Of a DNA stretch of 5,321 bases, positions 1-5,321 are shown piece after piece. Within the stretch, counting starts at the first letter, position 1. Every line of letters starts with the position of its first letter. A program made the position numbers and the translations under genes. The notes under the pieces were generated by a model. That model saw nothing but the letters and a program-made list of their open reading frames with translations, did not search any database and was not told where the DNA came from. The stretch lies in NCBI GenBank assembly GCA_025464735.1, contig JAODMX010000279.1:1-5321 (forward strand). The letters run 5' to 3'. This stretch comes from Frondihabitans sp. (GTDB lineage Bacteria; Actinomycetota; Actinomycetes; Actinomycetales; Microbacteriaceae).

Positions 1-1442
1 AGCGCGTCGCTGTACGACGAGATGACGATGTCGTGCAGGGCGGTCGGCAGGTTTTTGACGTTCTCGGGGGTAAGCGAGTCGGTGCTGCCGGTGGCGCTTC
101 CGGATCCGGCAGGCAGTCGGTCTGAGAGGAGACCGGTCAGCTTCGTGACGAACAGGCTGCCGACGACCGCAGCCCCGAGCGAGGCGCCGATCTGGCGGAA
201 GTAGTTGTTCGACGCTGTTGCGGTGCCGACCTCGCGGAGCGGGAAGGTGTTCTGCACGATCAGGGTCAGGATCTGCATGGCGAGGCCCAGTCCGATGCCC
301 ATCAGGGCGAAGAAGCAGCACATCAGCCAGATCGGAGTGGTCGGGGTCATCGTGCTCATCAGAGCCAGGGCACCTGCGGTGATCACCATGCCGGCGACCG
401 GGAACCACTTGTAGTGGCCGGTACGGCTGACGATCTGGCCGGCCAGGATCGAGGTGATCAGGAGACCTGCCATCATCGGGATCATGAGGAGGCCCGCCTG
501 CGTTGCGTTCGAGCCGGTGACCATCTGGAGGAACGTCGGGATGTAGGCCAGCGACCCGAACATCGCGATACCGATGACCATGGTGGCGGCCGTGGTCAGG
601 ACGAAGTTCGACTGCTTGAAGAGGTGCAGCGGCATGATCGGCTCGGCGGTGCGGCGCTCGACCATGACGAAGGAGAAGCCGAAGACGGCGACGCCGGCGA
701 AGAGGCCGATGATCATCGGGGAGTTCCAGGCGTACTGGTTACCGCCCCAGGTGGTGACGAGCACGAGACAGGTGCTGGCAAGGGCGAGGAGCGCCATGCC
801 GTAGCCGTCGATCGTGGGCTTGCCCTGGTCTTTGCGCTTCGGGAGCTTGAGGAAGAAGACGGCGCTCGCCATGGCGAGGAGCCCGAGCGGAATGTTCATC
901 CAGAAGCCCCAGCGCCAGCCGATGCCGTCCGTGAAGAAACCGCCGAGCAGCGGGCCGGCGACGCTCGAGAAGGCGAAGACCCCGCCCATGATGCCCATGT
1001 ACTTGCCCCGCTCGCGAGCGGGGACGACGTCGGCGATGATTGCCTGAGCGAGGATCATCAGGCCGCCGCCGCCGAGACCCTGGATGGCGCGTCCCGTGAT
1101 GAGCACTGGCATGGTGGTCGCCAGGCCGCCGACGATCGAGCCGCCGACGAAGATCGCGATCGCGATGATGAACAGACTCTTGCGGCCGATGAGGTCACCG
1201 AGCTTGCCGTAGATGGGGAGGACGATCGTCTCGGCCAGGATGAAGGCCGTGGTGACCCAGATCATCTGGTCGACACCGTGGAGCTGACCGACGATCGTCG
1301 GAAGCGCGGTGGAGAAGATCGTCTGGTCGAGGGATGCCAGGAGCATCGTGACCATGAGGCCGGCGAAGACGAGGAGAATGCCTCGTCTCGAGGCGGTAGC
1401 ACTGGTGCCCTTGGGGGGCCGCGCCGTGAGGGTGTTTGTCAT
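1..1442 (-). CDS. MFS multidrug exporter, DHA2 (EmrB/QacA) family, C-terminus cut by window edge
   Basis: The visible 480 residues form a polytopic inner-membrane protein of the 14-TM drug:H+ antiporter family (DHA2), which exports drugs or other toxic compounds using the proton gradient. Seen in the translation: a short basic N-terminus, then motif D1 (LDQTIFSTALP, about residues 38-48), motif A between TM2 and TM3 (GKLGDLIGRKSLF, 79-91), motif B with its arginine (R118 followed by QGLGGGG), antiporter motif C (GPLLGG, 163-168), and the late family motif EVGTATASNNYFRQIGASLG (404-423). A hydrophilic Ser/Gly/Thr loop follows at about 440-465. Family members are usually 480-550 residues, so only the last TM segment and tail should be missing. 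The ATG at 1442 overlaps the TGA of the TetR gene as ATGA and has only a weak AAAGAA ribosome site upstream, suggesting translational coupling. The regulator next door is likely its repressor. The substrate cannot be inferred. Confidence 0.95.
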   Translation of the reverse strand, partial: MTNTLTARPPKGTSATASRRGILLVFAGLMVTMLLASLDQTIFSTALPTIVGQLHGVDQMIWVTTAFILAETIVLPIYGKLGDLIGRKSLFIIAIAIFVGGSIVGGLATTMPVLITGRAIQGLGGGGLMILAQAIIADVVPARERGKYMGIMGGVFAFSSVAGPLLGGFFTDGIGWRWGFWMNIPLGLLAMASAVFFLKLPKRKDQGKPTIDGYGMALLALASTCLVLVTTWGGNQYAWNSPMIIGLFAGVAVFGFSFVMVERRTAEPIMPLHLFKQSNFVLTTAATMVIGIAMFGSLAYIPTFLQMVTGSNATQAGLLMIPMMAGLLITSILAGQIVSRTGHYKWFPVAGMVITAGALALMSTMTPTTPIWLMCCFFALMGIGLGLAMQILTLIVQNTFPLREVGTATASNNYFRQIGASLGAAVVGSLFVTKLTGLLSDRLPAGSGSATGSTDSLTPENVKNLPTALHDIVISSYSDA

Positions 1443-2071
1443 GAGATTCTTTCGACGAGAGAACGGACGAGCTGGCGAGCTCGGATCTGGATGGTCTCGG
1501 TGGGCTCGGTGCTGCCCTCCTCGATCCACTGCTTGACTGCGGAGCGGACCGCGCCGCCGCAGAGTGTGAGGAGCACCTCGGCGTCCCCGCGGTCGATGAC
1601 TGCGGTGACGTCGGTGCTGGGGGTGTCGTGCTCGAGGATCGCGGTGGTCGCGGCGAGCAGCTGGTCGACCATCCTCGTCATCTGGGCCATGTGGCGGGCG
1701 AAGAGCTGAGGATGGCGACGAAGGATCTCGATGCGCGACTCGTGGAGAGCGGCGCCTTCGATCGAGGGGCTGATCAGGTGGAGCAGCAGGGCGATCGTCG
1801 AGTCGACGACGTCGGCCCCATCGGTCTGTGCAATGTGAAGCTGCACGACGTCCGGGGTCAGATTTTCGTCACGGATGCCGAGAATGGCATCTTCTTTGGT
1901 GTCGAAGTAGTTGAAGAAGGTGCGAGAGGAGACGTCGGCCATTGCGCTGATCGAGTCGACGGTCGTGTGCTCGATGCCGTCTTTCAGCACGAGGGTGACG
2001 GCCGCCTGCTCGAGGCGTGCTCGGGTCTCTTCGCGCTTACGATCGCGCAGACCGATGTGTTCGGGAACCAT
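1439..2071 (-). CDS. TetR/AcrR-family transcriptional repressor of the downstream exporter
   Basis: This complete 210-residue protein has the usual TetR length and layout. The N-terminal DNA-binding domain covers about residues 8-65: a basic lead (RDRKREETR), a first helix, then the helix-turn-helix TTVDSISAMADVSSRTFFNY (36-55) followed by the typical FDTKEDAIL. The remainder, about 75-205, is helical and variable, as expected for the ligand-binding and dimerisation domain. It includes an ESRIEILRRHPQL stretch that resembles the MftR-like TetR C-terminal class; that resemblance is from memory. The start ATG at 2071 fits the domain boundary and lies 7 bases after a good -10 box. No ribosome site precedes it, so the mRNA is probably leaderless. 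It is the first gene of a two-gene unit with the MFS exporter (ATGA overlap). Inference: it represses its own promoter and therefore the exporter, and is released by an exported compound or its relative. Confidence 0.95.
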   Translation of the reverse strand: MVPEHIGLRDRKREETRARLEQAAVTLVLKDGIEHTTVDSISAMADVSSRTFFNYFDTKEDAILGIRDENLTPDVVQLHIAQTDGADVVDSTIALLLHLISPSIEGAALHESRIEILRRHPQLFARHMAQMTRMVDQLLAATTAILEHDTPSTDVTAVIDRGDAEVLLTLCGGAVRSAVKQWIEEGSTEPTETIQIRARQLVRSLVERIS

Positions 2072-2121: not shown

Positions 2122-2143
2122 TCTGCATTCGTGCAGATCTGCA
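2122..2143. repeat. Hairpin plus palindrome made of three TCTGCA/TGCAGA units
   Basis: TCTGCA (2122-2127), a TTCG loop (2128-2131) and TGCAGA (2132-2137) form a perfect 6-bp hairpin. A third unit TCTGCA (2138-2143) follows immediately and makes TGCAGATCTGCA (2132-2143), a perfect 12-bp palindrome. The cluster lies about 16 bp upstream of the -35 box of the tetR promoter, between it and the terminator of the preceding operon. It could be a binding site for another regulator or a chance structure; there is no T-run, so it does not look like a terminator. Confidence 0.4.
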
Positions 2144-2203: not shown

Positions 2204-3751
2204 TCAGACGCGGGCGGCGTCGCAGGCGATCGCGTTGCGCCACAGGGCGTAGAGCGCCTCGGCCGTGCGCCGATCGGCTGCAGCAAGGACACCACCCCAG
2301 GCGGGGAAGAGTGTGTCGCGACCGTTCTCGTCCAGAACGACGCCCCCCGCCTCGCGCACGATCAGCGCCGCCGCCAGATGGTCGACGGGGCCGAACGTTC
2401 CGATTACCGCGCCCACGCCGTGGCCAAGCGCGATCCCGGCGACGGTCAGGGTGCCGGATCCCATGACCCGCGTCGTGCAGTACCGGTCGGCGAGACCGTC
2501 GAGCAGGTCGAGCATGCCCGGCCACGGCCGATGCCCGGCAAGTTCCGTACTGACGATCGCGCCCCGAAGCGGGTCGACCGATCGATCCCACGAGCCTTCG
2601 GGAAGAGTCAGTCGGCGCTTGCCGACCCATGCGCCCTCACCTGCGGCGGCGTCGACCACCAGCCCTCGCCAGGGATCGGCGACGACCGCGACGACGGGGA
2701 CGCCGTCGACCACGAGGGCGAGAGAGAAGCTCGTCCACGGAACGCCATTGGCCAGGTTCGCGGTGCCGTCGACGGGGTCGAGGTACCAGCACGGCAGCCC
2801 GGCAACAGCCGCGCCGCCGTATTCCTCACCCACGAAGACGTGGTCGGGGAACTGGGCTCCGATCACGCCACGCACGCCACGTTCGATGGCGCGGTCGATC
2901 TCGGTGACATGGTCGGCAGGGTTCGCCTTCGTGGCGACGTCACCGACGCGGTGAGTGATGACGTGCTCGATGGCCCACTCGGCGAGCGACCGGGCGACGA
3001 GGCGGGCGCGGCGTCGATCGAGGGCATCGTCCGTTGCGCCGAACTCAGGAGCATTGGCTCCGAGCACGTCGAGCAGGGTCGACAGCCGGTTTGTGGTGAT
3101 CGAGTCGACTCCGATGGAGATCAACCAGGCCATCTGGTCGTCATCGTCGACGGTCCAGCACGAGACGCGGGCCCCGAGGGCATGGACGTCGCGCACCAGT
3201 TCGCGCCCGACGACAAGGTGCGGCAGGTTGATCATCGCGGGGCGGAGCTCGTCGAGGTCGGCGGCCTCGGGGGCGACGGCAGATCCCCAGGCGAGCCAGA
3301 TCTCTGCGTCCGGGTCGAGCGAACGCACAATGCGCATCGCGTCGGTGTCGCCGCACCAGGCGACATCAGGGCGCGGCACTGCGGCGGCGACCACGCGCTG
3401 GGCTGCAGCCGCGGGCTCGGGGGAGTCCATGTCGATGAGGAGCGTCGCGTCTGAACCTTCGAAGAGCGGGAGGATGTCGTCGAGTCGGGGGATCCGCTGG
3501 TCACCGCCACCCAGATCCTGGACTTCCTGCCACGTCAGTTCGGCGACGGGCCGATCGAGTCCCCAGAGGCGGTCGAGCGTCGCATCGTGCAGCAGGACCA
3601 CGACGCCGTCCCGCGTCAGACGCACGTCGATCTCGACGGTGTCGGCCCCGGCGTCGAGGGCGGAGACGATCGCGCTCACGGTGTTCTCGCGAAAATGCGA
3701 CGAGTTACCGCGGTGCGCGACGGCCCGCGTCGTCGTGGTTCCGGCGGTCAA
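2204..3751 (-). CDS. Bifunctional GDPD-IMPase fusion: glycerophosphodiester phosphodiesterase + inositol-phosphatase family domain
   Basis: This 515-residue protein has no signal peptide or membrane segment, so it should be cytoplasmic. Residues about 9-230 are a GDPD TIM barrel: HRGN (H13, R14), REN (21-23), EIDVRLTRDG (E40, D42), HD (H55, D56) and the late CWTVD motif (198-202). GDPDs cleave glycerophosphodiesters, usually to glycerol 3-phosphate plus an alcohol. Residues about 245-508 are an IMPase-family metal phosphatase with a full visible ligand set: K276 and D280 with VTEID (to D286), GEE (308-310), DPVDGT (325-330), and the final D457 in PVDHLAA followed by EAGG. A short basic/acidic linker separates the domains. 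Oddities: the usual GDPD IEIK element reads IDMD (106-109), and the late TD motif reads TN (220-221). The TTG start overlaps the ATPase stop (TTGA) and has a strong GAGGGAG site 7 bases upstream; the fold begins by residue 10, so a later start is unlikely. Alternatively the phosphatase half may act on another sugar or glycerol phosphate, as the family is promiscuous. Confidence 0.92.
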   Translation of the reverse strand: MTAGTTTTRAVAHRGNSSHFRENTVSAIVSALDAGADTVEIDVRLTRDGVVVLLHDATLDRLWGLDRPVAELTWQEVQDLGGGDQRIPRLDDILPLFEGSDATLLIDMDSPEPAAAAQRVVAAAVPRPDVAWCGDTDAMRIVRSLDPDAEIWLAWGSAVAPEAADLDELRPAMINLPHLVVGRELVRDVHALGARVSCWTVDDDDQMAWLISIGVDSITTNRLSTLLDVLGANAPEFGATDDALDRRRARLVARSLAEWAIEHVITHRVGDVATKANPADHVTEIDRAIERGVRGVIGAQFPDHVFVGEEYGGAAVAGLPCWYLDPVDGTANLANGVPWTSFSLALVVDGVPVVAVVADPWRGLVVDAAAGEGAWVGKRRLTLPEGSWDRSVDPLRGAIVSTELAGHRPWPGMLDLLDGLADRYCTTRVMGSGTLTVAGIALGHGVGAVIGTFGPVDHLAAALIVREAGGVVLDENGRDTLFPAWGGVLAAADRRTAEALYALWRNAIACDAARV

Positions 3752-4824
3752 GCGACTGCTCCCTCGAGGAGACCGTTGCGGTAGTGGCGGACGTTCCGCA
3801 GCTCGAGCGAGCCGCGCTCGCCGACCGCGGGGACGGCGCCCGTCACGATCGAGCGGATGCTTAGACCGTCGATGTCCACGACGAGTTCGGCGAAGTGACC
3901 GTGCGGGAGCACCCGCCGGACCTCGGCCGGGCCGCCTCCGGTGGATGCGAACGTGACGTCCTCCGGCCGCACCGCCCAGACGTCGGCCGATTCGGCAGCG
4001 TCTGGATCCGGTGCGCCCGCCACTCGGGCAGCGCCGAGGTCCGCGCCGGTCAGGAAGTTCATGCTGCCGATGAACGAAGCGACGAACCGGGTCTGCGGGT
4101 TGGCGTAGAGCTCGGACGGCGTGGAGACCTGCTCGATGCGGCCCTCGTTCATGACAGCGACGCGGTCGGAGATGGCGAGTGCCTCCTCCTGGTCGTGGGT
4201 CACCATCACCGTGGTGATGGCGAGGCGCTGCTGGATCTCGCGGATCTCCTCCCGGACCCGCACGCGGAGTTTGGCGTCGAGGTTCGACAGCGGTTCGTCA
4301 AGGAGGAGGAGCTCCGGCTCCTGGACGATCGCGCGGGCGAGAGCGGCGCGCTGCTGTTCGCCGCCCGAGATGTGCGCCGGGCGGGAGTCCTTGTGATGCG
4401 CAAGGTTCACGGTCTCGAGAGCGGCCATCACGCGGTCGCGGACCTCGGCCCGGGGCAGCCGCTTCAGCGTGAGCGGGAAGGCGACGTTCTTGAAGACGCT
4501 GAGGTACGGCCAGAGCGCGTAGTTCTGGAACACCATCGCGCTCGGGCGCTTCTCCGGTCCGAGCGTGGTCACGTCACGTCCGTCGATCAGGACGGAGCCG
4601 GTGTCGGGTTCGAGGAAGCCGGCGATCATGCGGAGGGTCGTCGTCTTGCCGCAGCCGGACGGACCGAGCAGGGCGAGGAGCTCGCCGTGTCGGATACTCA
4701 GGTCAAATGCATCGACGATGGTGCGCCCACCGAGGTTCTTCGACAGCCTGCTGATCAGAAGTCCTGAATCGGCGACGCCGGTTCCCTCGGGGGTGCGGGT
4801 GGGAACGGTGGTCTGGATAGCCAC
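3748..4824 (-). CDS. ABC importer ATPase with TOBE domain (PotA/FbpC/UgpC-like)
   Basis: This complete 358-residue subunit powers uptake of a periplasmic/extracellular-binding-protein-delivered solute. Visible motifs: Walker A GPSGCGKT (54-61), Q-loop Q100, signature ISGGEQQR (152-159), Walker B LLLLDEP (172-178), D-loop SNLDAKLR (180-187) and switch histidine H210. The stretch FVASFIGSMNFLTG (247-260) leads into a C-terminal TOBE-type regulatory domain (about 283-350, with VRPEDV at 285-290). Length and domain order match the ATPases of polyamine, ferric iron, phosphonate, sugar-phosphate and glycerol-phosphate importers, which cannot be told apart reliably by this subunit. The GTG start at 4824 has AGGAG at 4835-4831, six bases upstream. 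The permease ends nine bases upstream and the GDPD-IMPase gene overlaps its stop. The coupling to a phosphodiester-cleaving enzyme favours an organophosphate solute (inference). Confidence 0.95.
   Translation of the reverse strand: MAIQTTVPTRTPEGTGVADSGLLISRLSKNLGGRTIVDAFDLSIRHGELLALLGPSGCGKTTTLRMIAGFLEPDTGSVLIDGRDVTTLGPEKRPSAMVFQNYALWPYLSVFKNVAFPLTLKRLPRAEVRDRVMAALETVNLAHHKDSRPAHISGGEQQRAALARAIVQEPELLLLDEPLSNLDAKLRVRVREEIREIQQRLAITTVMVTHDQEEALAISDRVAVMNEGRIEQVSTPSELYANPQTRFVASFIGSMNFLTGADLGAARVAGAPDPDAAESADVWAVRPEDVTFASTGGGPAEVRRVLPHGHFAELVVDIDGLSIRSIVTGAVPAVGERGSLELRNVRHYRNGLLEGAVA
3759..3765 (-). promoter_or_regulatory. Ribosome-binding site GAGGGAG supporting the TTG start
   Basis: The minus strand reads GAGGGAG at 3765-3759, with a 7-base spacer before TTG at 3751. 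It lies inside the last codons of the ATPase gene. It is the main evidence, with the TTGA overlap, that translation of the fusion enzyme begins at the rare TTG codon. Confidence 0.75.
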
Positions 4825-4830
4825 GACGGG

Positions 4831-4835
4831 CTCCT
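4831..4835 (-). promoter_or_regulatory. Ribosome-binding site AGGAG for the ATPase GTG start, overlapping the permease stop
   Basis: The minus strand reads TAGGAG at 4836-4831. Its first three bases are the permease TAG stop, and the AGGAG core lies six bases upstream of GTG at 4824. Terminating ribosomes would therefore be positioned at the next start, which supports co-translation of the two importer subunits and decides the start codon. Confidence 0.75.
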
Positions 4836-5321
4836 ATCGAATCTGGAAGCCCTCGGCCAGTCGTCCGCCCAGGATGTACTTCCGGGCGACGAGCAGCAGG
4901 GCGATGGAGGGGAGGGAGAGCAGGATCGCGAAGACCGCCGCGACCTGGTCGGGATAGTTGAGGACCAGGGTGTACATCTCGGTGGGCATCGTCATGTAGA
5001 CGGGCGCACCCACGAGATAGGTACCCTGCGCCTCGTCGAACGAGGCGAGGAACGACATCAGCAGGGCCACCAGGATCCCGGGTAGCGCGAGAGGCAGGGT
5101 CACCTGGATGAAGGTTCTGAAGCGCCCCGCTCCGGCGTCTCGCGCAGCCTCCTCGAGGTTTCGCGGGACGGCGCTGAAGGCGGCGGCCGGGATCCAGGTC
5201 ATGAACACGACCGTTCCGATGAACTGCACGATCACGATGCCGAGGACCGTGTTCATCAGGTGCAGGCCGTAGAAGAGCGAGGCCATCGAGACGAACAAGC
5301 CCATTATCGGGAACTCGTTGG
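4834..5321 (-). CDS. ABC importer inner-membrane permease, N-terminus outside window
   Basis: The reading frame is open to the window edge, so the first in-frame Met (5304) is internal and the gene starts beyond 5321. The visible 161 residues are the C-terminal part of a binding-protein-dependent permease. They include a membrane segment at about fragment residues 24-45, the cytoplasmic EAA coupling loop (EEAARDAGAG at 56-65, then TLP at 74-76) that docks on the ATPase, a membrane segment at 80-94, SFDE (93-96), and a final membrane segment at about 127-145 ending in a basic RKYILGGRLAEG tail. The SFDE and late MTMPTEMY pattern resembles the PotC/ThiP-type second permeases of polyamine, iron and phosphonate importers; this is family resemblance only. 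Its stop lies in the ribosome site of the ATPase gene. The partner permease and the solute-binding protein are presumably encoded upstream, outside the window. Confidence 0.92.
   Translation of the reverse strand, partial: NEFPIMGLFVSMASLFYGLHLMNTVLGIVIVQFIGTVVFMTWIPAAAFSAVPRNLEEAARDAGAGRFRTFIQVTLPLALPGILVALLMSFLASFDEAQGTYLVGAPVYMTMPTEMYTLVLNYPDQVAAVFAILLSLPSIALLLVARKYILGGRLAEGFQIR

Follow-up and report, generated by a model that had tools for sequence, protein, structure and literature searches.

We describe a gene of Frondihabitans sp. (Actinomycetota, Microbacteriaceae) in which a glycerophosphodiester phosphodiesterase (GDPD) domain is fused to an inositol monophosphatase (IMPase) domain. 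We consider it probable that the enzyme belongs to a self-contained module in which a phosphodiester is imported, cleaved by the GDPD half and dephosphorylated by the IMPase half. The gene lies in a window of 5,321 nucleotides (nt), positions 1 to 5,321 of contig JAODMX010000279.1 (assembly GCA_025464735.1), and this whole stretch was analysed. The module would comprise a divergent LacI-type regulator followed by a lipoprotein binding protein, two permeases, an ATPase and the fusion enzyme. In the proposed pathway, the binding protein and the ATP-binding cassette (ABC) importer would take up a small phosphodiester, which the GDPD half would hydrolyse to an alcohol and a phosphomonoester. The IMPase half would then strip the phosphate from the monoester, releasing a sugar or polyol, possibly glycerol, together with phosphate. 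The domains and the conservation of catalytic residues are seen directly; the operon structure, the co-occurrence, the regulator and the palindrome described below are seen in relatives.

Both halves of the fusion protein, GDPD and IMPase, are complete and conserved. Within one uninterrupted frame of 515 residues, PF03009 (GDPD) scored 132.8 bits against a gathering threshold of 23.6 and PF00459 (IMPase) scored 134.8 bits against a cut-off of 27, bearing out the two domains described in an earlier reading made from the sequence alone (the sequence-only reading). A protein search returned 594 homologues, of which 120, including the window's own protein, were listed and form the rows of the residue counts given here. 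Among these matches, both domains were found in all 120, and the sources were Frondihabitans, Clavibacter, Agreia, Humibacter, Arthrobacter, Kribbella, Rathayibacter and others, the closest named homologues being those of Frondihabitans australicus (73%) and F. peucedani (72%). In three overlapping genome samples, with fusion matches counted at E <= 1e-40, the fusion was present in 18 of 249 genomes of the family (19 matched), 5 of 297 of the order (8 matched, 1 split and 2 with GDPD only) and 2 of 396 of the phylum (12 matched, 10 with GDPD only). The nineteenth family match is a GDPD stretch with one stop, and 1 of the 18 fusions is broken by contig ends. Because all 120 listed homologues and 18 of the 249 family genomes have the fusion, it is a genuine conserved protein, and the joining of two genes by an assembly error, which the sequence-only reading had named as a risk, is excluded. 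The same reading knew of no characterised enzyme of this architecture, and none appears among the matches listed; the fusion is already in databases and apparently uncharacterised among those matches. Most listed homologues are named only as inositol monophosphatase, so the diesterase half is easily overlooked; some names add deoxyribonuclease-2 and some give both enzyme families. At locus L068 (8747-9436) there is a GDPD-only relative of the fusion, whose genome match contains one stop. Trp199, present in 120/120 listed homologues, reads Arg at locus L067.

The window carries the end of an importer operon, namely part of permease B, the ATPase and the fusion, and stops inside the permease gene. 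In tblastn maps of 38 loci, gene order is constant where the operon exists: binding protein, permease A, permease B, ATPase, enzyme. The ATPase stop is overlapped by 4 nt by an enzyme-frame start codon in 22/22 operon loci (20 fused, 2 split; 25 loci were examined, 3 of them without the operon), and 9 of the 22 also offer further possible starts. The binding protein, counted at E <= 1e-50, occurred in 16 of the 249 family genomes, and all 16 have the fusion. In the order sample it occurred in 6 of 297 genomes, of which 5 have the fusion and 1 has the two genes side by side. Cys23 is invariant across 40 rows of binding-protein sequences, as expected of a lipoprotein (the lipobox was read by eye), and the predicted model of this protein has a mean predicted local distance difference test (pLDDT) of 82.1 and a predicted template modelling score (pTM) of 0.73. 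The ATPase matched 187 NCBIfam models and reached the cut-off of none of the 25 shown. Its best match was PhnT2 (348.1 bits, cut-off 457.7), which recalls the 2-aminoethylphosphonate importers PhnSTUV/PhnT2; no phosphonate-degrading gene was recognised among 28 proteins given to Pfam. The importer's cargo is presumably the substrate of the fusion enzyme. A cytoplasmic location of the enzyme, as proposed in the sequence-only reading, is probable, and the two consecutive steps on one molecule that it envisaged are plausible for an imported molecule.

The same operon with separate, overlapping GDPD and IMPase genes was found at L002 (3070-4622) and L072 (7788-9421); the GDPD of L002 falls inside the fusion clade and that of L072 outside it. 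In the 120-row alignment, the segment delimited by the columns of residues 230 and 246 is 11 to 42 residues long, depending on the homologue. Because linker length varies and two loci have separate genes, a fixed channel between the active sites would not seem to be needed.

Of the 20 operon loci that extend upstream of the binding-protein gene, 16 have a divergent LacI-type gene next to it (the query was the LacI protein of L054; 15 other loci have 60-82% identity, with L001 partial). The palindrome ATCGCAACGTTGCGAT occurs within 2 mismatches in 16/16 of the intergenic stretches between the two genes, at least twice in 12 of them; 6 of the 12 show a spacing of 44 bp between copies. A degenerate pattern of the palindrome gave 26 distinct sites in 12 genomes, 21 of them in the operon's intergenic stretch with at least one per genome, and the reversed pattern gave 0 sites in the same genomes. 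The window holds no copy of the palindrome and stops short of the intergenic stretch of the regulator. We infer that the LacI-type regulator binds this operator-like palindrome. Judging from the distribution of sites, this operon would be the main or sole member of the regulon, and the products of the enzyme may therefore require no other dedicated genes that share its control.

The nearest precedent for the fusion module is the agrocinopine system of pTiC58. In the part of PMC4526662 cited here, AccF splits the sugar phosphodiester into sucrose and arabinose 2-phosphate, AccG is a putative phosphatase, both are termed putative enzymes, and an accF mutant gives no response to agrocinopine A while still responding to arabinose 2-phosphate. 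The acc region resembles the fusion module in having adjacent importer, GDPD-family (AccF) and IMPase-family (AccG) genes, a local repressor and a two-step cytoplasmic breakdown. Unlike the fusion, AccF and AccG are encoded by two genes, which overlap by 8 nt behind the ABC importer. The importer is annotated as peptide-type with two ATPases, the regulator is of the DeoR type, and a sodium/phosphate (Na/Pi) cotransporter and a sucrose phosphorylase lie nearby on the other strand. Identity to the fusion is 37% over 100 amino acids (aa) for AccF, which retains the motif ELK, and 27% over 202 aa for AccG. The fusion is therefore no close relative of these proteins by sequence; it may work like AccF and AccG, yet it is not one of them.

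A second arrangement of this kind is found on pTiAF3.44 of Agrobacterium larrymoorei (L087), where an ATPase, two permeases, a binding protein, a GDPD and an IMPase stand in a row. Its importer is of the same broad class (ATPase 49% identical, permeases 28% and 31%, binding protein 25% over 200 aa). It differs in that the ATPase gene comes first, the GDPD and IMPase genes are separate and 9 nt apart, a ROK-family gene lies nearby and the GDPD retains ELK. Genes for a Na/Pi cotransporter and for an aldose 1-epimerase lie downstream (L087, 9673-12432) and could serve to deal with the phosphate and sugar set free. The substrate of the fusion enzyme could be a sugar phosphodiester of the agrocinopine or xanthosan kind. 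Xanthosan, handled by XanT and XanP of Xanthomonas, is presented in the cited part of PMC12807533 (2025) as a sugar phosphodiester nutrient of plant-associated bacteria, and such nutrients are perhaps common according to the same source. The xanthosan system differs in using a TonB-dependent transporter and a 2H-phosphoesterase rather than GDPD and IMPase (PMC12807533), and the word phosphatase is absent from the main text of that paper.

We think that a sugar- or polyol-phosphodiester is a more likely substrate than a plain glycerophosphodiester. Cells can use glycerol 3-phosphate without dephosphorylation, whereas a less common sugar phosphate, arabinose 2-phosphate for example, would have to lose its phosphate first; control of the LacI type points the same way. 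One alternative is general phosphate scavenging, in which a Ugp-like importer would feed an enzyme that strips glycerophosphodiesters to inorganic phosphate. The glycerophosphodiester uptake system ugpBAECQ likewise has an ABC importer with a cytoplasmic GDPD as its last gene; it differs in that it is not known to include a phosphatase. The ATPase reached 305.5 bits against a UgpC cut-off of 432, and the GDPD model NF006989 scored 80.1 bits against a cut-off of 264. UgpB is one among many tied matches of the binding-protein model, a set that spans phosphonate-, sugar-phosphate- and glycerophospho-type proteins as well as plain sugar-binding and iron-binding ones. Because the relatives carry a LacI-type regulator with an operator-like palindrome, phosphate scavenging, which the sequence-only reading had ranked equally, is now improbable.

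Alternatively, the enzyme could scavenge glycerophosphoinositol or a related inositol diester, the GDPD half yielding inositol phosphate or glycerol phosphate and the IMPase half releasing inositol, glycerol and phosphate. The pairing of the domains is consistent with this, as are the cytoplasmic location, the tie to an importer and the full IMPase metal site, whose residues (EE, DPxDGT and the last Asp) are kept in 120/120 rows. His458, after the last metal Asp, is invariant, and the Trp before that Asp is lost. Where SuhB has its inositol-contacting Glu, presumably equivalent to Glu213 of human IMPase, the aligned residue is Ile in 114 rows, Val in 5 and Thr in 1. This counts against an inositol substrate to a moderate degree, as further IMPase matches also differ there (E in L014, L088 and L089; V in L013; G in L068). 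No inositol-catabolic gene was recognised among 20 chosen neighbour proteins given to Pfam, and a xylose-isomerase-like triosephosphate isomerase (TIM) barrel in L062 is too unspecific to be taken as one. The fusion reached 80 bits with the inositol monophosphatase model NF008027 (SuhB, IMPA), short of its cut-off of 332. We therefore regard inositol scavenging as unlikely, and glycerophosphoinositol, the diester named in the sequence-only reading, is not favoured in view of the replaced Glu and the lost Trp. Histidinol-phosphatase HisN (TIGR02067) was considered as another identity and rejected (96.8 bits, cut-off 275.15). On two Rhizobium plasmids (L088, 6857-11766; L089, 6857-11672), an IMPase gene ends a sugar ABC operon that faces a second ABC operon, possibly another importer-linked phosphatase.

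A third alternative is that only the IMPase half is enzymatic, the GDPD half having no diesterase activity and serving for binding or stability, or having turned into a transferase. The basis for this is position 109, read like the other GDPD motif positions via alignment to 2pz0. It corresponds to the Lys of the E-x-K motif, which we take to be an active-site residue that binds phosphate. Lys occurs here in 0/119 readable rows (D66, E37, A6, G5, T4, S1) and in none of the standalone relatives L073-L084 of other actinobacteria. It is kept by two of the three further GDPD genes examined in G001 and G002 (L015, NIDLK; L016, NLDIK) and is missing from the third (L018, LRDLL), whose match is short and weak. 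Both catalytic His residues (His13, His55) and the three acidic ligands (Glu40, Asp42, Asp107) are, however, invariant in 117-118 readable rows, and a dead domain would hardly keep them. The distant Poribacteria GDPDs L004-L008 also have Asp at the Lys position, so its loss is not peculiar to the fusion. The third acidic ligand is Asp instead of Glu, a change that need not disable the site, since D596 is among the canonical catalytic residues of a GDPD-derived synthetase in the cited part of PMC12807533. Both halves are presumably active, and we give a non-enzymatic GDPD half little chance. Ten of the standalone relatives (L075-L084) come from large-genome actinobacteria and are 44-49% identical to the GDPD half of the fusion; their motif at the Lys position is mostly DLP (L078 aligned with a shift), delineating a Lys-less GDPD subfamily without a fused phosphatase. 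Finally, a chance fusion of halves unlinked in function to each other or to the importer, for which the variable linker and the two loci with separate genes might speak, is largely refuted by the strict operon linkage, the co-occurrence and the presence of both domains in all 120 listed homologues, and we hold it to be very improbable.

Several observations weigh against a self-contained module of import, cleavage and dephosphorylation. The orthologous LacI gene is missing from 4 of these 20 loci: at L062 its place is taken by a GntR/UTRA regulator, L064 and L065 have only distant LacI homologues, and at L072 no regulator was recognised there. Two family genomes (L066, L067) have the fusion without a binding-protein match, and no importer genes were found within an 18-kb stretch at these loci. 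The Fisher tests of co-occurrence are extreme but ignore relatedness. The LacI-type regulator suggests a sugar ligand without proving one, and many binding proteins match the binding-protein model at near-equal scores, so that the model leaves the ligand undecided. For want of the canonical Lys at position 109, the chemistry of the GDPD half may be different or weak.

The features of the window are listed below. Between 1300 and 5321, two terminator-like sites were found where 0.8 were expected, and this evidence is weak. Beyond the operon, a TetR-type regulator gene (1439-2071, minus strand) overlaps by 4 nt a gene for a DHA2-family major facilitator superfamily (MFS) exporter, the pair spanning 3-2071 on the minus strand. 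The MFS gene runs off the window and passes the TIGR00711 cut-off; its top-scoring model, OtrB, is below cut-off. The TetR gene recurs beside the fusion in L053 and L056 and the MFS gene in L056; neither does so in L054.

Features of the GDPD-IMPase fusion gene and its neighbours in the window
Feature	Position	Strand	Basis or remark
GDPD-IMPase fusion gene	2204..3751	-	515 aa, TTG start, one frame
GDPD half, PF03009, residues 13-223	3083..3715	-	Pfam match and motifs
Interdomain linker, about residues 231-241	3029..3061	-	Lower-confidence stretch of predicted model; length variable in homologues
IMPase half, PF00459, residues 264-506	2234..2962	-	Pfam match and motifs
4-nt overlap TTGA, fusion TTG start on ATPase TGA stop	3748..3751	-	Read from sequence
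ABC importer ATPase, PhnT2/PotA/UgpC-like	3748..4824	-	Pfam, NCBIfam, tblastn maps
ABC importer permease B, cut by window end	4834..5319	-	82% identity to permease B of L001
Terminator-like hairpin with T-rich tail, downstream of fusion gene	2122..2137	-	Weak

The fusion is a fused actinobacterial version of a catabolic module made of an importer, a GDPD and an IMPase, and it carries the GDPD-plus-IMPase logic of Ti plasmids into a different phylum. The six genes of the module form a compact, tightly linked set, which opens a direct route to its substrate by way of the binding protein and the fusion enzyme. We speculate, more tentatively, that some actinobacteria possess a dedicated opine-like module for an undescribed environmental sugar (or polyol) phosphodiester, with diesterase and phosphatase fused and the GDPD site rebuilt, around the mostly acidic residue that replaces Lys, to fit this substrate. 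If a sugar phosphodiester is indeed the nutrient, the module would be a third case, beside agrocinopine and xanthosan, of a sugar phosphodiester that serves as a private nutrient.
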